From Paraescarpia echinospica (lineage: Eukaryota > Annelida > Polychaeta > Sabellida > Siboglinidae), in contig CM034531.1 of NCBI GenBank assembly GCA_020002185.1, positions 88,562,288 through 88,626,287 on the forward strand: 64,000 nt of DNA. Direction: 5' to 3'. The position numbers and the translations under genes were made by a program. Below the pieces are notes generated by a model. That model searched no databases. It was not told where the DNA came from and was given only the letters and a program-made list of their open reading frames with translations. Below are positions 5,959-63,462 of this stretch, in pieces; position 1 is the stretch's first letter; every line of letters begins with the position of its first letter.

Positions 5959-45722
<39,764 letters not shown>

Positions 45723-52251: not shown

Positions 52252-52372
52252 GTTGTTGGAGCGATGTGGTGGAGACGTCGTGTGTTCGTGTTTGTAAAAG
52301 TGTGTATGAAATGTGCGCGTCGTCAAACAGCGGCGGCGGCGCATGACACTACGACTGATTTTGATTGACATG

Positions 52373-53160
52373 TGAACGGAGAACAAAGGATTTTTACAAA
52401 CGTTAAACGAAACGTTAAAAGTACGAAATTAAACGTTATATACGATCACTGGGGGGTCAGGAAACACGAGATGCATATATATTAGAGAAATTCGCGGTAA
52501 AAGTCACATTTGACAATGAATGCACTGACGTGAACGCTAACTTTTTTCCTAAAACAAATTCCTCGGTAGAGTAGGCGGAATGCGTTAAGCGCACATGTGT
52601 GACATCTGTTGCGCGTGACTTAACGAGTTGGAATGTGAACGGAGAACAATGGATTTTTACAAACGATAAATGAAACGTTAAAAGCGCGAAATAAAACGTT
52701 GTATAAGATCGCTGGGGGATCAGGAAACACGAGATGCATAGATATTAGAGAAATTCGATGTAAAAGTCACATTTGACAATGAATGCACTGACGTGAACGA
52801 TAACTTTTTTCCGAAAACAAAATGCCTGGGTTGGATGAAGTATGCACGTCGATAATTGAAAAAGATAAGGATATGAGTGTGAAGTGCGCATGCGCGTTAT
52901 AGTGTAGACAATGACATTTCAAAAACAATAAACGAAACGTTAAAAGCACGAAACTAAACGTTGTATAGATTCTCTGTGGAGTCAGGAAACGTGAGGTGCA
53001 TCGATATTAGAGAAAATCGATGTAAGGAGAGATTTAACGGCGAATGTACTGACGTGACCGGATACTTTTTTTCGAAAACAAAATGTCTGAAATGTACGAG
53101 GCACGCACGCTGATAATTGAGTAAGATGACGTATTAGCGTGAAGTGCGCATGCGTGTTAT
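52373..53160. repeat. Triple 265-bp repeat between divergent genes
   Basis: Three diverged copies start near 52373, 52637 and 52905. Each carries a cgaaacgttaaaag-type block, a ggtcaggaaacacgagatgc block, ttagagaaattcg, aatgcactgacgtgaac and a run of T before gaaaacaaa. The first two are closest. Location between the minus gene (52251) and the plus gene (53275) suggests an enhancer, origin or both. Confidence 0.8.
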
Positions 53161-53170
53161 TTAAAAAAGG

Positions 53171-53177
53171 TATAAAA
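53171..53177 (+). promoter_or_regulatory. TATA box for the OB-fold gene
   Basis: tataaaa, 104 bp upstream of the ATG at 53275 and directly after the last 265-bp repeat. Confidence 0.6.
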
Positions 53178-53210
53178 CGGGTGAGAAAAATGTTATATTG
53201 TATGACGCTG

Positions 53211-53241
53211 AACTTCTAACCGTGTATTCTTTCTACAACAG
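53211..53241 (+). promoter_or_regulatory. Leader 3' splice site
   Basis: A branch-point-like ttctaac followed by a pyrimidine-rich stretch and acaacag, 33 bp before the ATG. It could be a leader intron acceptor or a spliced-leader acceptor; the matching donor is not clear. Confidence 0.45.
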
Positions 53242-53274
53242 CAGAGCAGCAAGCAGCAGACGTTCTTCCGCAAC

Positions 53275-54036
53275 ATGGCGGATGAAAGTCAACAACAACA
53301 ACCAAAAAAGTCGAAGGCACCACGTAAGCAGTCGATGAAGGCGGCGACAGCGGCCAGCAGCAGCAGTCAACCTTCGGCACTGATTGCAGCCTTGTCAACG
53401 GGGGTGTCACCACCCGTTAAGCGCCCCGTTACGCTGATCGCGGCCCCGTTGACTGTCGGCCGAAAGAGAAGCGCCGAAGAGGCGCGCTTGGAGCCCGACG
53501 ACACGGCCGAGCAGCCCCCGGTCCTGTCGCGGAGCGGTTCTATGGAGCGTGAATCGGCGGCGTCGACACGCGCCACAGCGGTGAGTCTGAGACATCTGAA
53601 GTGCGCTGTCAACGGTGTGTATAAACTCCTGTCGCCCGTTACGATCGAGGCCGTCTCGTACAAAGGTGAGCCCGGCACCACCTATTTGGGATGTTCCCGT
53701 TGTCGCCGGAAATTGCAGACAAGCAAAGACGGGACCCTGATATGTCGAACGCACGATGAAGTGTTTGTACCGAAATATTTCTTCGCGTTGCGTGTGATGG
53801 TGAAGGACGGCGAGGAGGAAGAAGACGAGCTTTGGCTTACGTTGTTCGATAGCCAAATGTCTAATCTCGTCGAGTTCACGGCCGAGTACTTGACGGAATT
53901 GAACGAGGAGGATCTCCGCGATACCGTGCTCGAGTTAACCGGTACTAAAGTGGAGATTAGTGTGCGGAAGACGAGTTGGAACGGGGACCCCTCGTATACA
54001 GTCCGCACACTAAAAAGATACGTCGACGATGACTAA
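53275..54036 (+). CDS. RPA-like zinc OB-fold ssDNA-binding protein, viral element
   Basis: 253 codons. The N-terminal ~100 residues are Lys/Ser/Ala/Pro-rich and look disordered, with basic clusters (KKSKAPRKQ, GRKRSAEE) suggesting nuclear import. The C-terminal part resembles the third DNA-binding OB fold of replication protein A: CSRCRRKL and CRTHDE as a zinc site, then KYFFALRVMVKDGEEEEDEL, LWLTLFDSQMS and EYLTEL. It probably binds single-stranded DNA during element replication. An in-frame phase-0 donor (GCG then gtgagt) at 53580/53581 separates the disordered and OB-fold halves. Base composition differs sharply from the host gene. Confidence 0.7.
   Translation: MADESQQQQPKKSKAPRKQSMKAATAASSSSQPSALIAALSTGVSPPVKRPVTLIAAPLTVGRKRSAEEARLEPDDTAEQPPVLSRSGSMERESAASTRATAVSLRHLKCAVNGVYKLLSPVTIEAVSYKGEPGTTYLGCSRCRRKLQTSKDGTLICRTHDEVFVPKYFFALRVMVKDGEEEEDELWLTLFDSQMSNLVEFTAEYLTELNEEDLRDTVLELTGTKVEISVRKTSWNGDPSYTVRTLKRYVDDD
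53581..53586 (+). promoter_or_regulatory. Phase-0 splice donor inside the OB-fold gene
   Basis: gtgagt after 102 complete codons. All four downstream acceptors (ending 54061, 54280, 54456, 54555) open phase-0 frames, so this donor is compatible with each of them. Confidence 0.45.
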
Positions 54037-54061
54037 TGTTGTTGTCTTGTGTTGTTTGTAG

Positions 54062-54256
54062 GAGGAGGAGGAAAATTGGCCGCTACTGGTAGATTTATTG
54101 AAGCACGCCAACGAACGACAACGAATGAGAGATCGTCGGGGGCTGGAACTAAGCAAGGAGAGCTTTGAACTATTAGCCGAGTCGGCCGAACAATATATAA
54201 GACCGTTTTGGTTGGGCTATAAAGCAAGCCTATTTCGTAGTAGTTTGATGTACTAA
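54062..54256 (+). CDS. Cassette ORF A, starts at a splice acceptor
   Basis: Open for 64 codons from the base after tttgtag to TAA, with no ATG near its start. It is preceded by gactaat, where taa is the OB-fold gene stop and the motif resembles a branch point. Encodes a helical, charged segment beginning EEEENWPLLVDLLKHANE. No family recognised. Confidence 0.45.
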   Translation, partial: EEEENWPLLVDLLKHANERQRMRDRRGLELSKESFELLAESAEQYIRPFWLGYKASLFRSSLMY

Positions 54257-54280
54257 CAGTTGTGCTTTTATATGCTTTAG

Positions 54281-54436
54281 GAAGTGCGCTGCGTACTCCA
54301 AAAAATGCTTGCAAACAACGAAAGGATTCGCGCTCAGTACGACGAGGTTGCGACGTTCGTAAGAACGTTGTTGGAACGGGGTGTGCCGGGGTCAGTAAAG
54401 ATGGAGGAGAAGGAGGAGGAAAAGAAGGAGGACTAA
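54281..54436 (+). CDS. Cassette ORF B, starts at a splice acceptor
   Basis: 51 codons from the base after tgctttag to TAA. The upstream tactaac is a perfect branch-point consensus and contains the stop codon of ORF A. Helical start (VLQKMLANNERIRAQYDEV), acidic end (EEKEEEKKED). Contains an internal phase-0 donor (TTC then gtaaga) at 54359. Confidence 0.45.
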   Translation, partial: EVRCVLQKMLANNERIRAQYDEVATFVRTLLERGVPGSVKMEEKEEEKKED

Positions 54437-54456
54437 TCATAATAATGTGTTTGTAG

Positions 54457-54537
54457 GACGCTCTGATGCAACACACCAGACGTGAGTGTATGAGCGACTT
54501 CCTACACGCGTTGCTGACGGTGATTCGTAAAGAGTAG
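54457..54537 (+). CDS. Cassette ORF C, starts at a splice acceptor
   Basis: 26 codons from the base after tttgtag to TAG. The stop of ORF B sits in the upstream gactaat. Starts DALMQHTRRECMSDFL. An in-frame ATG is its fourth codon. Confidence 0.4.
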   Translation, partial: DALMQHTRRECMSDFLHALLTVIRKE

Positions 54538-54555
54538 AACTGCTTTGTGCTGTAG

Positions 54556-55227
54556 GGTAGTGGCGGAGGAGTACGTGACGCTCACGTATTGGAGGCGATA
54601 ATCGAGGAGGCGCTGGGCGACTGCTCGACCCGAACGCGCCCCCCTCCACAGACGTATAACGACAGCCTGGGGACGATGGGACCGACGTGTTCGCCGTACT
54701 GGAGCGTATCGGAGGAGCTGGGGACGTGCCAACGGCAACTCGTCGTGCCGAGCCGGAGTCAGTTGATCGGGCGTTACGAACGACTGGCTATGGATCTCGT
54801 CGCCGAGACTATCGGCGAAATGGTTCTGGAGAAGGCGCGGTATCATTGCGGGGTATGCGAACCGAATGAAGGCCGCCCCTACGTTCACATGCCCGGCTAT
54901 CGCGCGGGGCGGCCGAATCGCGTCTACATGCAACGTTTCGATAAGCCGGGCTGTATTGTGACGCGGTATTTCAACGGCGTCATGGACACGTTCCTGCATC
55001 GATCGCTCATCCCCTGTTTCACGAGACTAGTGCATATTCTACACGAGACTACGGTGTCGATTTCTTCTGGAGATCAGCAGCCGCAAACGGGCCGTGCAGG
55101 AGAATTGTATTTGGTGCAATTTGTGTCGAACTGGTTGTTGGGAACGAATTGGCGCGATTATATGAATCGCGTGCAACTCGAGTCGGCCGTGCACACGTAC
55201 GTGCAACGCCGGAGCGGACTGGAATGA
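54556..55227 (+). CDS. Cassette ORF D, unknown viral-element protein
   Basis: 223 codons from the base after gctgtag to TGA; first in-frame ATG only about 40 codons in, so an upstream exon should provide the start. Contains YHCGVCEPNEGRPYVHMPGY with two close cysteines and histidines (possible metal site) and a mostly helical C-terminal half. GC-rich like the polymerase region. I do not recognise the family. Confidence 0.55.
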   Translation, partial: GSGGGVRDAHVLEAIIEEALGDCSTRTRPPPQTYNDSLGTMGPTCSPYWSVSEELGTCQRQLVVPSRSQLIGRYERLAMDLVAETIGEMVLEKARYHCGVCEPNEGRPYVHMPGYRAGRPNRVYMQRFDKPGCIVTRYFNGVMDTFLHRSLIPCFTRLVHILHETTVSISSGDQQPQTGRAGELYLVQFVSNWLLGTNWRDYMNRVQLESAVHTYVQRRSGLE

Positions 55228-55319
55228 ACGAACGCTAGTAGAATAGAGAACATTTTATTATTTGCTTGCTATTGAAACAAAGGCTTCACGCTGTGTTTGA
55301 ATGTTGTAAGAGTACCGAA

Positions 55320-55609: not shown

Positions 55610-55638
55610 GCGACGCTCGAAAAATATAATTAGAGAGA

Positions 55639-56745
55639 ATGCCACCATCACCTACTAGATGGCAATGTCCGAAATGTGGGCGCTATTTCGCGACGCAGTC
55701 GACGTTAGAACGACATGTATAGAGTTCGAAAAGTTGCGGCGACGAAGCGCTATGCGTAAAACGTCGAGAGTGTCCAAAATGTGGCACGCTATTCACCACG
55801 CGTCACGTTATGCTACGACATCTGAGGCTGCAGTGTGGCCGTTCGCCACCTCCTGAATCAGTGGCGGAGGCGGCAGCCGCTAGGGCGCCGTCGCCCGACG
55901 ATCTACAGCGTGTCGTAGACGAGCACCGGCGTAGCATAGAGACGTCGGTGGCGCGCGGCGTCATACAGTCGCGTTACAACTATCGTATGACCGCCTGTAC
56001 GAGTACGCGCGTGCTCGAACCGCGTCTGAGGGAAATGTTTCTCGCGCAAAAGAACGCGTTTAAAATTAACGTAAGCTATGGTTTTGTATTACGCCACAAG
56101 GTGTCGGGTCGGTACCGATATTTTCATTCTTCGTGTAACTGTTGCGGTCGCCTCCTCGAAACACCCGCCCTAGTTACCGATAGCCGTTCATTCGAACGAT
56201 TCCTCGACGCCGTGCGCACTACCGACGTACTGCAGTACGCCATCGCGCAGCGTCCCGACTCGTGATGGATCGTCGAGCTGGTATCTAACGCCACCTACTT
56301 CGTGAACGTCATCATCAATCATCCTATCGGCTGCGTTGGCGTGACGACGCTTCCCGCCTACGTGCGCCTCAACAAGTCCATCGTGTCGTTGACGAACGAT
56401 GATCGAGGTACGCCCTACGACGACCATCTGTGTCTCTTCCGATGCATCGCCCTTCACCTGCAAGGTCACCGACGAGGCGAAAGTGGCCGCCACATCGGTA
56501 CGAGCCGTTTAACGAAAGTCGCTAAACGTCTGCACGCGCGGTATTGTCGCGACACTTCGACATCGAACGGCGGCGGCGTGCGCCTGAACGAATTGGATCG
56601 CGTGGAGACGGTTTTCGGCATCAACGTCGTCGTCTATCGTCGACTGACGAACGACGTCGCCAAACTAGTCCGTCGATCGCGCGAAGCGCACCCCACGACG
56701 CTGAACGTCAACCTGTACGAGTCGCACTTCTCGTACATAAGCGAA
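55639..56745 (+). pseudogene. Family B DNA polymerase, zinc-finger N-terminal part
   Basis: One frame from ATG 55639, broken by in-frame TAG at 55720 and TGA at 56263. It holds two C2H2-like fingers (CPKCGRYFATQSTLERH and CPKCGTLFTTRHVMLRHLRL), then a region with the pattern CLFRCIALH (56432-56458) seen at the N-terminus of polymerases from Polinton-like and related elements, ending near HFSYISEN. The frame is then lost near 56745. Confidence 0.75.
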
Positions 56746-56747
56746 AA

Positions 56748-57945
56748 CGTACAAGTGCTGGAAATGCGGCAGCGTCCTCTGGCGGAGCGCGCACGATTTA
56801 CGACGTAACGAAGCGACGTGCGAAGGCGGCGTTCGTCACGTGTTCCCCGGCGGCGTCTACCGACCGACGGCGTCCGTATTCGAGCGGCTCGACGACGAAT
56901 GCATCGACGTCGGCGACGACGACCTGCGCTAGTACCCGTACCGCGCGACGTTCGATTTCGAGTGCTATTTCGCCAATAACGATCTGCCGACGGATAGCGA
57001 CAAATGCCGCTGGATCGCGCGACACGAACTGCTCAGCGTGAGCGTCGCGTCGAACGTGCCCGGTCACGAAGCGGCGCGCTGTTACGTCACGACCGGCGAT
57101 TCGTCGGAACTCGCGCGTCGCCTCATCGACGACCTGGAAGCGGTGAGCGCGGCGGCGTGCGCGATTATACGTCCCCGCTACGACGCGACCTTCGAGTCGC
57201 TCGACGCGCTCGACGTCGACTGGCGGCGACGATGCAACGACGACGACGACGCCGACGCGTCACCGTACGCCACTCTCGCCGACCGGCTGTGGACGTACCT
57301 TCGTCAAATGCCCGTATTGGGATTCAATTCGGGTAAGTACGACATGAACGTCGTCAAAAAGTACTTGACCCCCCTGCTCATAACCGACGACGCGCAGCAC
57401 ACGTCGTCGGCCTTTACCATTAAACGTCAGAACAATTACATGTGCCTGTCGACGACGACGTTGAAGTTCCTGAACATAACGAATTACCTCGCGCCCGGCG
57501 TTAGCTACAATCGCTTTCTGAAAGCGTACGGTTGCTCGGCAACAAAGGGCTACTTCCCGTACGAGCACATCGACGCGTTGTCGCGTCTGGACGAAACCGC
57601 CCTGCCGTCGCGCGAAGCTTTCTACAGCCAGCTGAAACGCGAGGGAATCTCCGCGGAGGCGTACGAGATTTGCGCGACGGCGTGGCGCGACGAGGGCATG
57701 ACGTCGATGCGCGATTTTCTTGTGTGGTATAACAATCGTGACGTGGCGCCGTTTCTCGAGGCCGTCGATCGCCAGTTCGCCTTCTATCGGCGCCGATGTA
57801 TCGACATGTTCAAGGACGCCATCAGCGTACCGGGGTTGACGTTGTTGTACCTGTTCAACGACCTGCCGAAGTCGATCCATTTCTCGCTCTTCAACGAGCC
57901 GAACAAAGATCTGCACCGTCTGCTGCAGGCGCAGATCGTCGATCA
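56748..57945 (+). pseudogene. Family B DNA polymerase, exonuclease domain part
   Basis: Second frame. Starts with a third Cys-rich finger (YKCWKCGSVLW), then PGGVYRPT, an in-frame TAG at 56930-56932, YPYRATFDFECYF (exonuclease I motif, D-x-E), MPVLGFNSGKYDMNVVKKY (exonuclease II motif) and FLVWYNNRDVAPFLEAV (exonuclease III-like, Y-x3-D). The spacing matches the organellar/viral polymerase B2 family that uses a protein primer. Confidence 0.8.
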
Positions 57946-58341
57946 TCTTCGCGCGCCACCACGAGGCCGACGTGACGTCGTTTCGTGGCGGCGACGCGCC
58001 GTGCCGATCGATAGTAGGCTTCGACGCAAACGGCCTCTATCTATGGGCGATAATGCAGGAGATGCCGACGCGCTGAGAACGCCTTTCGAGCGGAACGCGT
58101 GCACCGCTACGGTCGTATGGCCGTGGAGTGGTTGACGCGCGTGGAGGCGGAAACCGGCGCGCGTAAACGTCACCAGTTGAACGGACGCGAGAAGCGCATC
58201 GGAAAGAACCGAGTCGACGGCTGGTGCGCCGCCACGCGAACGGCGTATCAATTTCACGGCTGCTATTTTCACGGCTGCCCGACGTGTCAGGCGCACGTGA
58301 CGGCGAACGCCGTCAACGGTCAACCGATGACGACGCTGTAG
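57946..58341 (+). pseudogene. Family B DNA polymerase, motif A region
   Basis: Third frame (57948-58076) carries SIVGFDANGLYLWAIMQEMP, polymerase motif A with the catalytic Asp. It hits TGA at 58074. A fourth frame continues with YGRMAVEWLTRVEAE and FHGCYFHGCPTC, a segment found after motif A in this family, to TAG at 58339-58341. Confidence 0.8.
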
Positions 58342-59394
58342 GCCGCGACGATCGCCGTGACTGCCTACCTGCGCCGTTTCGTCGACGAAGTCGTCGAAAT
58401 GTGGGAGTGTCAGTGGCACGCCGTGCAACCGCCGGCGGTGCCGACGCCGCCCGACGCGTCACGATGGGAACCGCCGCCGACCGCCATTACGCTCTCGACG
58501 ATACTGGAGGCGGTGCGCGACGGCTCTCTGTTCGGCCTCGTGCAGTGCGATATCGCCGTACCGGAAGCGTTGCGCGACAAGTTCGCCGAGATGCAGCCGG
58601 TATTCAAGAACGTCGATATTGTGCGCGACGATCTCAGCCCGTTCATGCGCGACTACGCCGAGTCGCACGATCTCCTAACGCGACCTCAACGCACGCTCGT
58701 CGGTAGCTACTTCGGCGCGGCGATCGTGCTCGCGACGCCGCTCCTACGCTGGTATATGGCGCACGGGCTCGTCGTCGAGCGCGTCTACCAGATCGTCGAG
58801 TACGCGCCGATAGCGTGCTTTCGCCGCTTCGGCGACGCGGTTTCGACGGCGCGCCGCGAGGGCGATATCGATCCCGACAAATCGATCATCGCCGATACCT
58901 TTAAACTTCTCGGGAACAGTTCCTACGGGAAAACGATTACGCGCGTCGATCGGCACCGGGAAATCAAGTACGCGACGCCGGTCGGCGCGTCGATGCTCGT
59001 CAACAATCGGCGCTTCCGGCAACTGGACGTCGTCGTCGACGACGCGCTGTACGAGGTGGCGCTGAATAAGCGTAAAATCGTCTACGGCCTGCCGATACAT
59101 ATCGGCTATTTCGTATTGCAGTACGCAAAATTGAGAATGCTGGAATTTTATTACGATTTCGTCGACGCCTACATTCCCCGTCCGCTCTTCCAGTACTGCG
59201 CTATGGACACCGACTCGGCGTACATAGTCCTAGCCGGACGTGACGTCGACGCGCTCGTACCGGAAGAACGTCGCGAACACTATTTCCGGAATCGTTCGCT
59301 CTGGTTTCCGGCCGAATGCTGCGACGCGCACGTGGACGCCTACGTACGACGGCGCGTGGGACTAGCGTGGGACGGCGCGGCGGCCTGCTGCGCG
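58342..59394 (+). pseudogene. Family B DNA polymerase, motifs B and C, cut by gap
   Basis: Open in the same frame as the preceding piece after its TAG, to the gap. Contains TAYLRRFVDEVVEMWECQW, motif B as FKLLGNSSYGKTI and motif C as YCAMDTDSAYIVL (DTD). The longest intact part of the polymerase; its C-terminus is hidden in the Ns. Strong CpG richness. Confidence 0.85.
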
Positions 59395-60394
59395 NNNNNN
59401 NNNNNNNNNNNNNNNNNNNNNNNNNNNNNNNNNNNNNNNNNNNNNNNNNNNNNNNNNNNNNNNNNNNNNNNNNNNNNNNNNNNNNNNNNNNNNNNNNNNN
59501 NNNNNNNNNNNNNNNNNNNNNNNNNNNNNNNNNNNNNNNNNNNNNNNNNNNNNNNNNNNNNNNNNNNNNNNNNNNNNNNNNNNNNNNNNNNNNNNNNNNN
59601 NNNNNNNNNNNNNNNNNNNNNNNNNNNNNNNNNNNNNNNNNNNNNNNNNNNNNNNNNNNNNNNNNNNNNNNNNNNNNNNNNNNNNNNNNNNNNNNNNNNN
59701 NNNNNNNNNNNNNNNNNNNNNNNNNNNNNNNNNNNNNNNNNNNNNNNNNNNNNNNNNNNNNNNNNNNNNNNNNNNNNNNNNNNNNNNNNNNNNNNNNNNN
59801 NNNNNNNNNNNNNNNNNNNNNNNNNNNNNNNNNNNNNNNNNNNNNNNNNNNNNNNNNNNNNNNNNNNNNNNNNNNNNNNNNNNNNNNNNNNNNNNNNNNN
59901 NNNNNNNNNNNNNNNNNNNNNNNNNNNNNNNNNNNNNNNNNNNNNNNNNNNNNNNNNNNNNNNNNNNNNNNNNNNNNNNNNNNNNNNNNNNNNNNNNNNN
60001 NNNNNNNNNNNNNNNNNNNNNNNNNNNNNNNNNNNNNNNNNNNNNNNNNNNNNNNNNNNNNNNNNNNNNNNNNNNNNNNNNNNNNNNNNNNNNNNNNNNN
60101 NNNNNNNNNNNNNNNNNNNNNNNNNNNNNNNNNNNNNNNNNNNNNNNNNNNNNNNNNNNNNNNNNNNNNNNNNNNNNNNNNNNNNNNNNNNNNNNNNNNN
60201 NNNNNNNNNNNNNNNNNNNNNNNNNNNNNNNNNNNNNNNNNNNNNNNNNNNNNNNNNNNNNNNNNNNNNNNNNNNNNNNNNNNNNNNNNNNNNNNNNNNN
60301 NNNNNNNNNNNNNNNNNNNNNNNNNNNNNNNNNNNNNNNNNNNNNNNNNNNNNNNNNNNNNNNNNNNNNNNNNNNNNNNNNNNNNNNNNNNNNN
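59395..60394. other. Assembly gap, exactly 1000 N
   Basis: Round-number length indicates an unsized scaffold gap. Open frames running through it are meaningless. Confidence 1.
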
Positions 60395-60458
60395 TTATTT
60401 ATCACCATGTTCAGACAAGCTTTGAAATTAATGTGTTATGATGCAAATTATAGTGTAC

Positions 60459-60625
60459 CTTCCCACCCGATGGAGCAGTTGCACTGGACGATCCTGAATG
60501 TCTGCTTCAGCTCGTAGTCGTCAGCGAGCAGGTCAAACATACACTCGCCGCGGCCGGAACAGTTGCACAGGTTAACGGAGACATCGGCCGCCGCGACACC
60601 TCCCTTACCGTCCGAGGCCGAAAAC
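60459..60625 (-). CDS. Inverted copy of exon 27
   Basis: Same splice sites and codons as 30814-30980. Confidence 0.85.
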
Positions 60626-60840
60626 CTGTGAGCAGTCAGACATGGTAAACGCTATCAAACAAGAGTCAGACTGAGTGGTATGGTTGATATCCAAGTAATC
60701 AAAGACAAACAAATTCCTATGCACATATCAACAATTGCCGTGACGGAAAAGGCAACAATTGTTTATTATGTGTTGGCCATATTGCAACAAATTGTATCTA
60801 AGCCCAACGTTATTCTGTAAAGTCATACAATAGTACATAC

Positions 60841-61039
60841 GATATATTCATGGCTGCCATGCTGGTGGGCATCCACGTGTAAACGTTGTTCTCGAATGTG
60901 GCGCCATCTGGGAGTGTCGACTCGAGTGTGACGTTGACAGTATCGCCATCTAGATCGACCGTCGTCAACGTCAGAGAATTGACCTCCCCCGCAGTCACAT
61001 TGAATACTACATCAACGGTAATATTCGGGCTCGCGTTGG
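60841..61039 (-). CDS. Inverted copy of exon 26
   Basis: Same splice sites and codons as 30400-30598. Confidence 0.85.
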
Positions 61040-61299
61040 CTGAAAAACAAAGGAACAACCAATGTATAAAAGATAAATGCCAGGAAGAACTACTGTTTCG
61101 GATAGGCACGAGGTGGTTTATTGGCAGATTTTATATCAACAAATGTAAAAAAATAATTTAACAAATGTATACAGCGACAAAACCTCGCTTTACAATCACT
61201 TCGATAATACAGCCATTTCGCCTCATATACAACATAAACGAAGTGTTACATCAATAATATTATTGATTCATGATGACATCATTCATCACTTTCCCTTAC

Positions 61300-61368
61300 A
61301 CAAGGTTTCCGCGTTCTCTTTGTTCTTGGAATTTGTTTCCAGCGTTGCTTCAGCAGCATCTTCTTTGC
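61300..61368 (-). CDS. Inverted copy of exon 25
   Basis: Same as 30071-30139. Confidence 0.75.
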
Positions 61369-61557
61369 CTGAATGAAACATAATTTGCTGGTACATCATC
61401 TGTAGCACATCACGTGAATCGTACGGTGCTTTAAATATATCGATGTTCGTTTACATAACTATAAGTTTAAAAACTAATATAATTAGTATCGGTAGTGTAC
61501 ATTAGACTGTGTTTTACTTTCACATTTACGTTATTGTTACATAATCGCGCATCGGGG

Positions 61558-61990
61558 TCGCTGCTAGTCCCGCACCCTTGGCATGTGGCGTCGCTGCTAG
61601 TCCCGCACCCTTGGCATGTGGGGTCGCTGCTAGCCCCGCACCCTTGGCATGTGGGGTCACTGCTAGCCCCGCGCCTTGGCATGTGGGGTCGCTGCTAGCC
61701 CCGCACCCTTGGCATGTGGCGTCGCTGCTAGCCCCGCACCCTTGGCATGTGGCGTCGCTACTAGCCCCGCACCCTTGGCATGTGGCGTCGCTGCTAGCCC
61801 CGCACCCTTGGCATGTGGGGTCGCTACTAGCCCCGCACCCTTGGCATGTGGCGTCGCTGCTAGCCCCGCACCCTTGGCATGTGGCGTCGCTGCTAGCCCC
61901 GCACCCTTGGCATGTGGCGTCGCTGCTAGCCCCGCACCCTTGGCATATGGGGTCATTGCTAACCCCGCACCCTTGGCATGTGACGTTGTC
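61558..61990. repeat. 33-bp minisatellite, inverted copy, about 13 units
   Basis: Reverse complement of the array at 29294-29885 with five fewer units; the short unit is retained near 61670. Confidence 0.95.
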
Positions 61991-62333
61991 GAAACGTGTA
62001 AAATAGACTGCGCCCGTTATTCAACAATCTCGTTGTCACTTAAGTTAAAATAATTAATAAAACTCGCATTACAGTGGAATGGCTTGATTGGACAATACTA
62101 GATTTTTTGGGGAATTCGCTTTAGTATGGGACGCGGGCGTTTCCAATATTGCAACAGTCAAATTCTAGACCGTCGAAATCATACACTAGAACGAACTACG
62201 ACGAAATACAATTTAATCTGCCTCAATCAACTACCACTCATGGCTTGCGAGGGTGTGCTGTTTTTTACAGAAGTTATACGTGTGTTTGTTTGCTAGTGCG
62301 CTTGCGCGTGCGCGTACACACGGGTCTAGCTAC

Positions 62334-62522
62334 CTGTAACAGCGAAGTCGAAAATACATTCCTTGTTGTCGCCACACTTCTTTTGGGCCTTGTCCCGCTG
62401 CGATGACGTCATGTCCGCCAGTACGTCTTCCAGGAACCGTGGCACGAACGTGGGGTGGGCGAATGTCGTGTAACTCTCGCCCGATGCGTAGTAGAACAGT
62501 GAGTCGATATTCTGTATCCTCC
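62334..62522 (-). CDS. Inverted copy of exon 24
   Basis: Same splice sites and codons as 28752-28940. Confidence 0.85.
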
Positions 62523-62855
62523 CTGACCAGAAATGTGTAAAGGTGATATACTTATTCGAGTAAACATGAAGAAAATTAACGCCCCGAAAACCACGAAGCG
62601 ATTTGCCAATATATTTTGGAACACGGATGCAGAAACAACACTACTAAGATGTGCACACAGGGTGTGATAACCCACAGAGGGACTCTGATAATTGGCTGCG
62701 CAGGAAGTTATATAATAAATTACCTTATCGTACGGAACCAATATCACGCCGCACGCAAGCACATTCATACATGCACACGCATCAACGTACGAACTGGCAT
62801 TACACGCGCTTAAACATGCATATAGAGCAAAGGCTTCGTGACTTGCATCGTTCAC

Positions 62856-63050
62856 CAAACTGTGTAAATATCGTCTTCTCCGACGAGCTGTTTGACAACG
62901 GCACGGCGTTCTCCCCTGGCGGCAGGAGGTCGTCAGTCGGGTCGTCATTGAACACACCCATCAGGCCTTTCGTGTTGCTCTTGAATGTGCTGGGGGCTCC
63001 AACCGTAATGTCAAGCTGCTGTGCTTTCACGCCAATTGTCAATGAGAATC
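62856..63050 (-). CDS. Inverted copy of exon 23
   Basis: Same splice sites and codons as 28224-28418. Confidence 0.85.
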
Positions 63051-63462
63051 CTGCATAAAAACAACAAGCAAAGACCCAAAAACCCGGTTTAAGTAATCGT
63101 AGACGCCACATGAGACAGCATTACAAAATTACGATAATAATGTAATAAAGAAGCCACCGTTCATTTTGAAGTAGTAAATGTATGAATGAAACACAAATGG
63201 GGAAGGAAAATGATACACACTTGAAAACGTAATCAGTGTTAGTATTTAAATTAGTAACAATTATTTTAGCTGTGCAACTCAATTGTATCATTGCAGTTTG
63301 GTTTACAGAAAACATTAGTTAGTATAAAAACTGCAGTAAGTTATTTAGGTATGTATACCACGGGGAAACAACACTAACTTTTTTAACATTAGTCTCATTT
63401 ATAAGTGTTACGTCGTCGGCTAAAGCATCACGCCAGTTTGGGTTGTATGGCTGACATCATAC

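Follow-up and report, generated by a model that had tools for sequence, protein, structure and literature searches.

Layout of the OB-fold gene and the open reading frames behind it

The window analyzed here is a 64,000-nucleotide stretch of the tubeworm Paraescarpia echinospica (contig CM034531.1, positions 88,562,288 to 88,626,287 of the forward strand; assembly GCA_020002185.1). Near its end lies an adintovirus/Polinton-like element in which a gene for an OB-fold protein is followed, on the same strand, by four open reading frames (ORFs), here called cassettes A to D, that lack a start codon at their heads. A preliminary description of the sequence had listed four ORFs of 64, 51, 26 and 223 codons behind this gene, each opening at a splice acceptor 18–25 bp past the preceding stop, and all four were recovered in their places, with measured distances from the end of the stop to the start of the next predicted exon of 25 (OB to A), 24 (A to B), 20 (B to C) and 18 bp (C to D). 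The features of this block are as follows.

53170..53179, plus strand: putative TATA-box-like sequence upstream of the shared exon, read by eye
53275–54036, plus strand: ORF of the OB gene, 253 amino acids
53275..53580, plus strand: predicted shared N-terminal exon, 102 codons, basic, of low complexity, with runs resembling a nuclear localization signal (NLS)
53581..53586, plus strand: candidate 5' splice donor GTGAGT, phase 0, rank 2 of the 158 GTs in the region
53581..54036, plus strand: unspliced continuation with the RPA70 C-type OB-fold domain, closing with TAA in gactaat
54031..54061, plus strand: candidate acceptor region for A, branch-point-like gactaat with the OB stop, T/G-rich tract, TAG
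54062..54256, plus strand: cassette A, 64 amino acids, head without a start codon
54251..54280, plus strand: candidate acceptor region for B, tactaac with the A stop, then TAG
54281..54436, plus strand: cassette B, 51 amino acids
54431..54456, plus strand: candidate acceptor region for C, gactaat with the B stop, then TAG
54457..54537, plus strand: cassette C, 26 amino acids
54538..54555, plus strand: spacer with the candidate acceptor TAG for D (gctttgtgctgtag)
54556..55227, plus strand: cassette D, 223 amino acids, predicted to be all-helical; relatives P0001, P0002 and P0003/L001

The OB-fold label given to the first gene was borne out by a match to the RPA70 C-terminal OB domain (PF08646) with an E value of 2.5e-9 and 37.5 bits against a curated cut-off of 28.5, and by a match in the PDB to the solved replication factor A protein 1 (RPA1; E 3.5e-6). 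Codon usage ranks the proposed frame first of six for each of A, B, C and D. A common origin of A, B and C by tandem duplication of one module was rejected, as their alignments were no better than those of shuffled sequences (of 1000 shuffles, 978 scored as high for A–B, 690 for B–C and 266 for A–C). Ahead of the block's promoter, positions 52370–53100 hold diverged direct repeats of roughly 260 bases.

Candidate splice signals within the window

Acceptors were scored with a metazoan 3' splice-site matrix across region 53100–55300, which contains 144 AGs. The TAGs at which the four cassettes open take ranks 2 (A), 3 (D), 5 (B) and 7 (C), and over both strands of the window, 104 of 1531 TAGs equal or exceed the lowest of these four scores. 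The stops of OB, A and B sit in gactaat, tactaac and gactaat, respectively, which would place the branch-point A 26, 25 and 21 nt ahead of exons A, B and C. These three TAA stops all fall within ACTAAY, compared with 55 of the 1367 TAAs on the plus strand of the window; by these counts, the predicted acceptors and the overlaps of stop and putative branch point are more than chance. The C stop is a TAG and lies outside any branch-point-like motif. A single candidate donor, gtgagt at 53581, follows 102 codons of the OB gene in phase 0, as had been described, and fits all four acceptors.

The preliminary description had further stated that every cassette begins at an acceptor-like TAG in phase 0. 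The acceptor-like character stands on the ranks above, while the phase is in part circular, because a stop-to-stop ORF that follows an in-frame TAG is in phase 0 by definition; relatives of the element were therefore needed to decide. A TAG acceptor also halts reading into the cassette from unspliced RNA. Two other donors were considered. The site at 53666 scores higher than the one at 53581 in the window, but it is in phase 1 and its GT is present in just 3 of 40 near copies, and it was rejected as the true donor; a donor at 53181 in the 5' untranslated region, with GT in 34 of 40 near copies, is not needed for the model.

Conservation among near copies in the same genome

A search of the tubeworm's own genome (1.084 Gb, 3111 contigs) listed 41 matches of 93–100% identity, the window included, with the best 40 of 1105 candidates scored, and 39 of these loci (L003–L041) were aligned with the window to give 40 near copies. 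Conservation of the donor, acceptors and phases in homologous elements had been set beforehand as a check on the preliminary description. The donor GTGAGT is identical in all 40 near copies, and the acceptor TAG is kept in 38 (A), 40 (B), 37 (C) and 38 (D) of them, one miss each for C and D being a copy that ends before the site. From the first base of the donor runs a stretch of 17 nt (53581–53597) that is invariant in 40 of 40 copies, the third longest such run in 759 bases. This run extends beyond what a donor requires.

The ratio of nonsynonymous to synonymous differences (pN/pS) among the near copies is 0.37 for the shared exon, 0.35 for OB, 0.65 for A, 0.54 for B, 0.29 for C and 0.36 for D, and control frames give at least 0.82, except for the +1 frame of B (0.50). 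With a simpler count and a bootstrap, pN/pS is 0.59 (0.38–0.91) for A, B and C pooled, and C alone also excludes 1. These ratios show purifying selection on the shared exon, on OB and D, and on A, B and C taken together. Insertions and deletions (indels) occur in the shared exon of 31 of 39 copies, with a net change of frame in 3, and in B of 26 of 38 copies, with a net change in 2; control segments have indels in 21 of 39 copies upstream (18 frame-changing) and in 17 of 36 downstream (13 frame-changing). Cassette C is open in 38 of 38 copies.

The spacer between A and B measures 24 bases in 30 of 40 copies and 23 in the other 10, and of the nine short-spacer copies that reach the end of B, six keep B open to the same stop. 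As a result of this one-base difference, A and B cannot be one continuous frame, a case named in advance as speaking against splicing, and readthrough from A to B is excluded in the copies concerned.

Conservation among diverged copies

For a more diverged set, the genome was searched with the D relative P0002, the best 150 of 1971 candidates were scored, and 30 loci were fetched and joined by a neighboring locus (L044) for a total of 31; counts for the donor and for A, B and C cover 30 sequences, the window plus the 29 loci that remain without L044 and L063. The D frame opens directly after a TAG acceptor in 27 of the 31 loci, and in 27 of 31 the conserved head of D (the IIEEAL region) begins no more than a few residues from that TAG. 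The donor reads GTGAGT in 27 of 30, GTTAGT in two and GTGAAT in one. From their acceptors, in phase 0, A is full length in 23, B in 24 and C in 21 of the 30, with limits of 45–90, 46–57 and 25–29 residues, respectively, and with peptides judged by eye to be the same. Among distinct diverged peptides, pN/pS is 0.61 for A, 0.49 for B and 0.60 for C. In L045–L051, A is short and a different peptide stands at the position of C.

The preliminary description had placed the stop codon inside a branch-point-like motif for three of the four acceptors, which holds for the window and in part for its relatives. Followed across the donor, the OB frame closes with a TAA that lies in CTAAY in 18 of 30 sequences; 11 more stop earlier, and one (L046), which has lost the motif, reads on. 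At the boundary between B and C, ACTAAYCA is present in 29 of 30. At the step from A to B, the stop in most diverged loci precedes CTAAC by a few bases and does not lie inside it. The overlap of stop and putative branch point is thus common, not invariant, and the predicted donor, acceptors and phases are better kept. Relatives of D are very numerous in this genome, with the best 150 of 1971 candidates scored and most of those listed open for about 200–230 codons, a large expansion.

Cassette D and an Escarpia-associated element

In the window, the first methionine of D is residue 41, and conservation starts near residue 5, so that the conserved head of D contains no start codon. In a shuffle test of the first 40 residues, the count was 11 of 5000 shuffles for P0002 and 57 of 5000 for L001; a proline-rich stretch of L001 used as a control also scored (10 of 5000), and the conservation of the D head consequently rests on the 31 loci above instead. 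D is predicted to be all-helical, with a predicted local distance difference test (pLDDT) score of 58.7 for the whole protein and 70.9 for the core of the L001 protein, and it has a conserved CxxC...H stretch. Fold searches with D, in which a Bcl-2-like fold was among the candidates considered, gave no confident match.

Locus L001 is contig QGON01000007.1, filed in GTDB as 'bacterium endosymbiont of Escarpia laminata'. As it carries the tail of OB, D and a polymerase, it is evidently not bacterial but contamination, namely a fragment of an adintovirus-like element from the tubeworm or from its virus. The OB frame of L001 ends in a TAA within CTAAC, the next AG (rank 1 of 148) closes 23 bases further along, and D opens at this acceptor in phase 0, with its first methionine at residue 112 of 271. 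OB leads straight to D in this element, and A, B and C are absent.

Proposed alternative splicing of a shared N-terminal exon

Taken together, the conserved donor, the conserved acceptors and the start-less conserved frames behind them make it very probable that this block is expressed by alternative 3' splicing in cis, with a shared N-terminal exon joined to four tail cassettes and the OB protein as the unspliced form. The block would be a single transcription unit of the element with one promoter. Unspliced mRNA would encode a disordered, basic N-terminal segment followed by the RPA-like OB fold. Splicing from the phase-0 donor at 53581 to any of the four phase-0 acceptors would remove the OB domain and place the same 102-codon segment in front of one of the tails A to D, and one start codon would serve five proteins as a result. 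Each cassette follows what appears to be one plan, in which a branch point on or beside the previous stop is followed after 18–25 nt by AG, an open frame and a stop. That these junctions form, in cis, in tubeworm cells is predicted from the DNA sequence. Because the shared segment has two NLS-like basic runs, we infer that it would direct every product into the nucleus, and it may carry the tails there or onto DNA.

Several observations weigh against this reading. The D acceptor has no good branch point in the window, the nearest yUnAy lying at 39 nt, and all four cassettes use TAG, compared with CAG in 16 of 18 script-found sites of host EGF-type exons (5959–39013). Codon usage does not favor the shared exon in its own frame. 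Among the near copies, which are young, the splice columns as a set are no more conserved than random columns (P 0.41, 0.46 and 0.16), in part because insertions at the OB stop misalign, and an invariant codon pair such as that at the donor is not rare in the N-terminal and OB segments (35 of 252). Bootstrap ranges of 0.33–1.44 for A and 0.35–1.44 for B mean that neither alone excludes a pN/pS of 1, and the +1 frame of B has a lower ratio than the proposed frame in the same comparison (0.68). Indels are found in D of 28 of 37 copies, with a net frame change in 10 of the 37, and in A of 4 of 39 copies, 3 of them with a net change. In the diverged set, the third frame from the B acceptor is longer in 14 of 30, such that openness alone does not pick the B frame, which is chosen on its conserved peptide. 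D does not open at a TAG acceptor in four loci: L062 has a stop shortly after the start of D but keeps the acceptor, L063 lacks the D head, L072 carries an altered base at the acceptor, and L044, which is more distant, has its D frame after TAA. In L059 the TAG is present with a weak score of 3.6. Finally, the L001 contig begins inside OB, downstream of the donor position.

Two ways of using the acceptors had been left side by side in the preliminary description, a shared exon with alternative acceptors and trans-splicing, and the former is favored here. Trans-splicing of a spliced leader onto a polycistronic RNA at each acceptor, perhaps also at 53242, with a leader that must supply the AUG, would account for an acceptor just upstream of every ORF, including the one at 53242 before the OB start, which ranks 4 of 144, has ctaac 23 nt upstream and is in frame with OB. 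Leaders that end in ATG are reported for flatworms in the part of PMC12582326 consulted, which counts in favor of this mechanism. It offers no reason, however, for one internal donor to be kept as GTGAGT in 40 of 40 and 27 of 30 copies, and the 26-residue C would become a free peptide. We also know of no spliced leader in siboglinid annelids. Since the intact donor would go unexplained, we regard trans-splicing as unlikely. The same donor and acceptors would be left without a role if each ORF were translated without splicing, by non-AUG initiation, readthrough or reinitiation. TTG codons in D, the 12th in the window and the 18th in L001, could serve such initiation, but conservation of D begins upstream of these codons, close to the acceptor, and the A–B spacer varies by one base, which together leave unspliced translation highly improbable.

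Similarly small is the probability that the shared exon and A to D form a constitutive chain of exons separated by tiny introns, with donors ahead of each stop. GT sites do occur inside A, B and C, but the in-phase donors are weak or the introns too short; the best phase-0 donors score 4.7 after nine codons of A, 4.1 after one codon of B and 6.4 in C, where the intron would be 36 nt. Moreover, the conserved peptides reach their stops, and L001 runs from OB straight to D. Decay of what was once one ORF, or ORFs arisen by chance between two genes, would fit with the many decayed copies, with the stops and frame changes of the polymerase gene in the window and with the partial circularity of phase 0. 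Against this stand the conservation of A, B and C peptides in diverged elements, which largely contradicts it, the conserved acceptors in the spacers and the change of relative frame between A and B in 10 of 40 copies, and we give decay or chance the least credence of all the explanations considered.

Beyond alternative splicing itself, the cassettes could behave as a plug-in array of terminal exons, each consisting of branch point, acceptor, phase-0 domain and stop, a view to which we give about even chances. Self-contained cassettes of this kind could come, go or be exchanged while promoter, start codon and neighbors stay as they are, and the absence of A–C from the Escarpia-associated element and the altered C peptide and short A of L045–L051 are what suggests it. 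If so, an animal virus family would use splicing to vary the tails behind a constant head that is nuclear or binds DNA, in a manner that resembles a gene-cassette array.

Comparison with known systems

A shared N-terminal exon spliced to alternative C-terminal frames is known from small DNA viruses, in parvovirus NS1/NS2, polyomavirus T antigens and adenovirus E1B. The arrangement predicted here is alike in its shared exon. It differs in that four compact 3' cassettes stand in a row behind an RPA-like gene, with stops that, other than ahead of D, overlap or adjoin the next putative branch point and with cassette content that varies between relatives; the compact row of tail cassettes in an adintovirus-like element would be the new part. 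Adintoviruses and Polintons are, to our knowledge, usually annotated as strings of unspliced ORFs. The OB domain is like the C-terminal one of eukaryotic RPA70 (PF08646), unlike which it is short and sits in a virus-like element, with an N-terminal exon predicted to be spliceable.

The sequence of stop, little or no gap, acceptor and next ORF resembles spliced-leader operons as treated in the part of PMC12582326 consulted (SL1-type operons of C. elegans, and Ciona). The block differs from these in its conserved internal donor, in its start-less cassettes and in a host for which no spliced leader is known. In the literature consulted in part, including PMC11071296, a spliced cassette gene is not described for adintoviruses or Polintons; the parts of PMC11071296 consulted propose alternative C-termini for Penton made by frameshifting, not by splicing. 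Likewise, among titles, openings of abstracts and parts of PMC11071296 and PMC11071308, no report was found of a row of start-less tail cassettes in an adintovirus-like element.

If the proposed splicing is correct, small start-less ORFs near replication genes would be hidden exons, and the protein sets of adintoviruses and Polintons would consequently be undercounted. The layout of one donor and many acceptors would also provide a testable case of an RPA-like protein and its accessory proteins being made in set ratios from one promoter, and a testable example of cassette evolution by splicing.

Identity of the element and its neighbors

Behind cassette D lies one further gene of the element.

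55630..59394, plus strand: probable gene for a type B DNA polymerase, zinc fingers at its N-terminus and an OTU-like stretch read by eye; in this copy it has stops and frame changes and ends at a run of 1000 N

The type B motifs and the LCLFRC stretch were read by eye, and the family name of the polymerase is putative; a profile search for an OTU domain in the polymerase gave no match. The polymerase of L001 is open for 626 codons to the end of the contig, with two stretches that are 72% and 55% identical to that of the window. On the flank of near copy L006, an integrase gene (L043:7806–9050, minus strand) matches rve (E 7.7e-13) and Chromo (E 1.8e-7). An rve integrase with a C-terminal chromodomain fits the definition in the part of PMC11071296 consulted, and on this basis the element is classified as adintovirus/Polinton-like; it shares this integrase with adintoviruses and Polintons, and its polymerase may be of their protein-primed type B, with zinc fingers and, by eye, an OTU-like N-terminus.

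Two ORFs that may resemble Polinton capsid proteins (L043:4633–5814 and L042:3025–4098), candidates for the hexon or double jelly-roll major capsid protein, had no Pfam match. Scans of IMG/VR with OB, D and the polymerase found no relatives, a protein search with OB gave none at E 0.01, phage records searched with the polymerase stretch gave none, and an Rfam scan gave no match. Directly upstream of near copy L006 lies a second, diverged element (L042 and L044; C9:58151500–58168753), which has a polymerase stretch about 75% identical to that of the window; the DNA_pol_B_2 match in L042 is weak (E 0.031).

After the 1000 N (59395–60394), positions 60395–63120 of the window read as the reverse complement of about 28154–31130, sharing with it the translated stretches and a 33-bp repeat array. 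Such an arrangement at the gap suggests a scaffolding or haplotype duplication.
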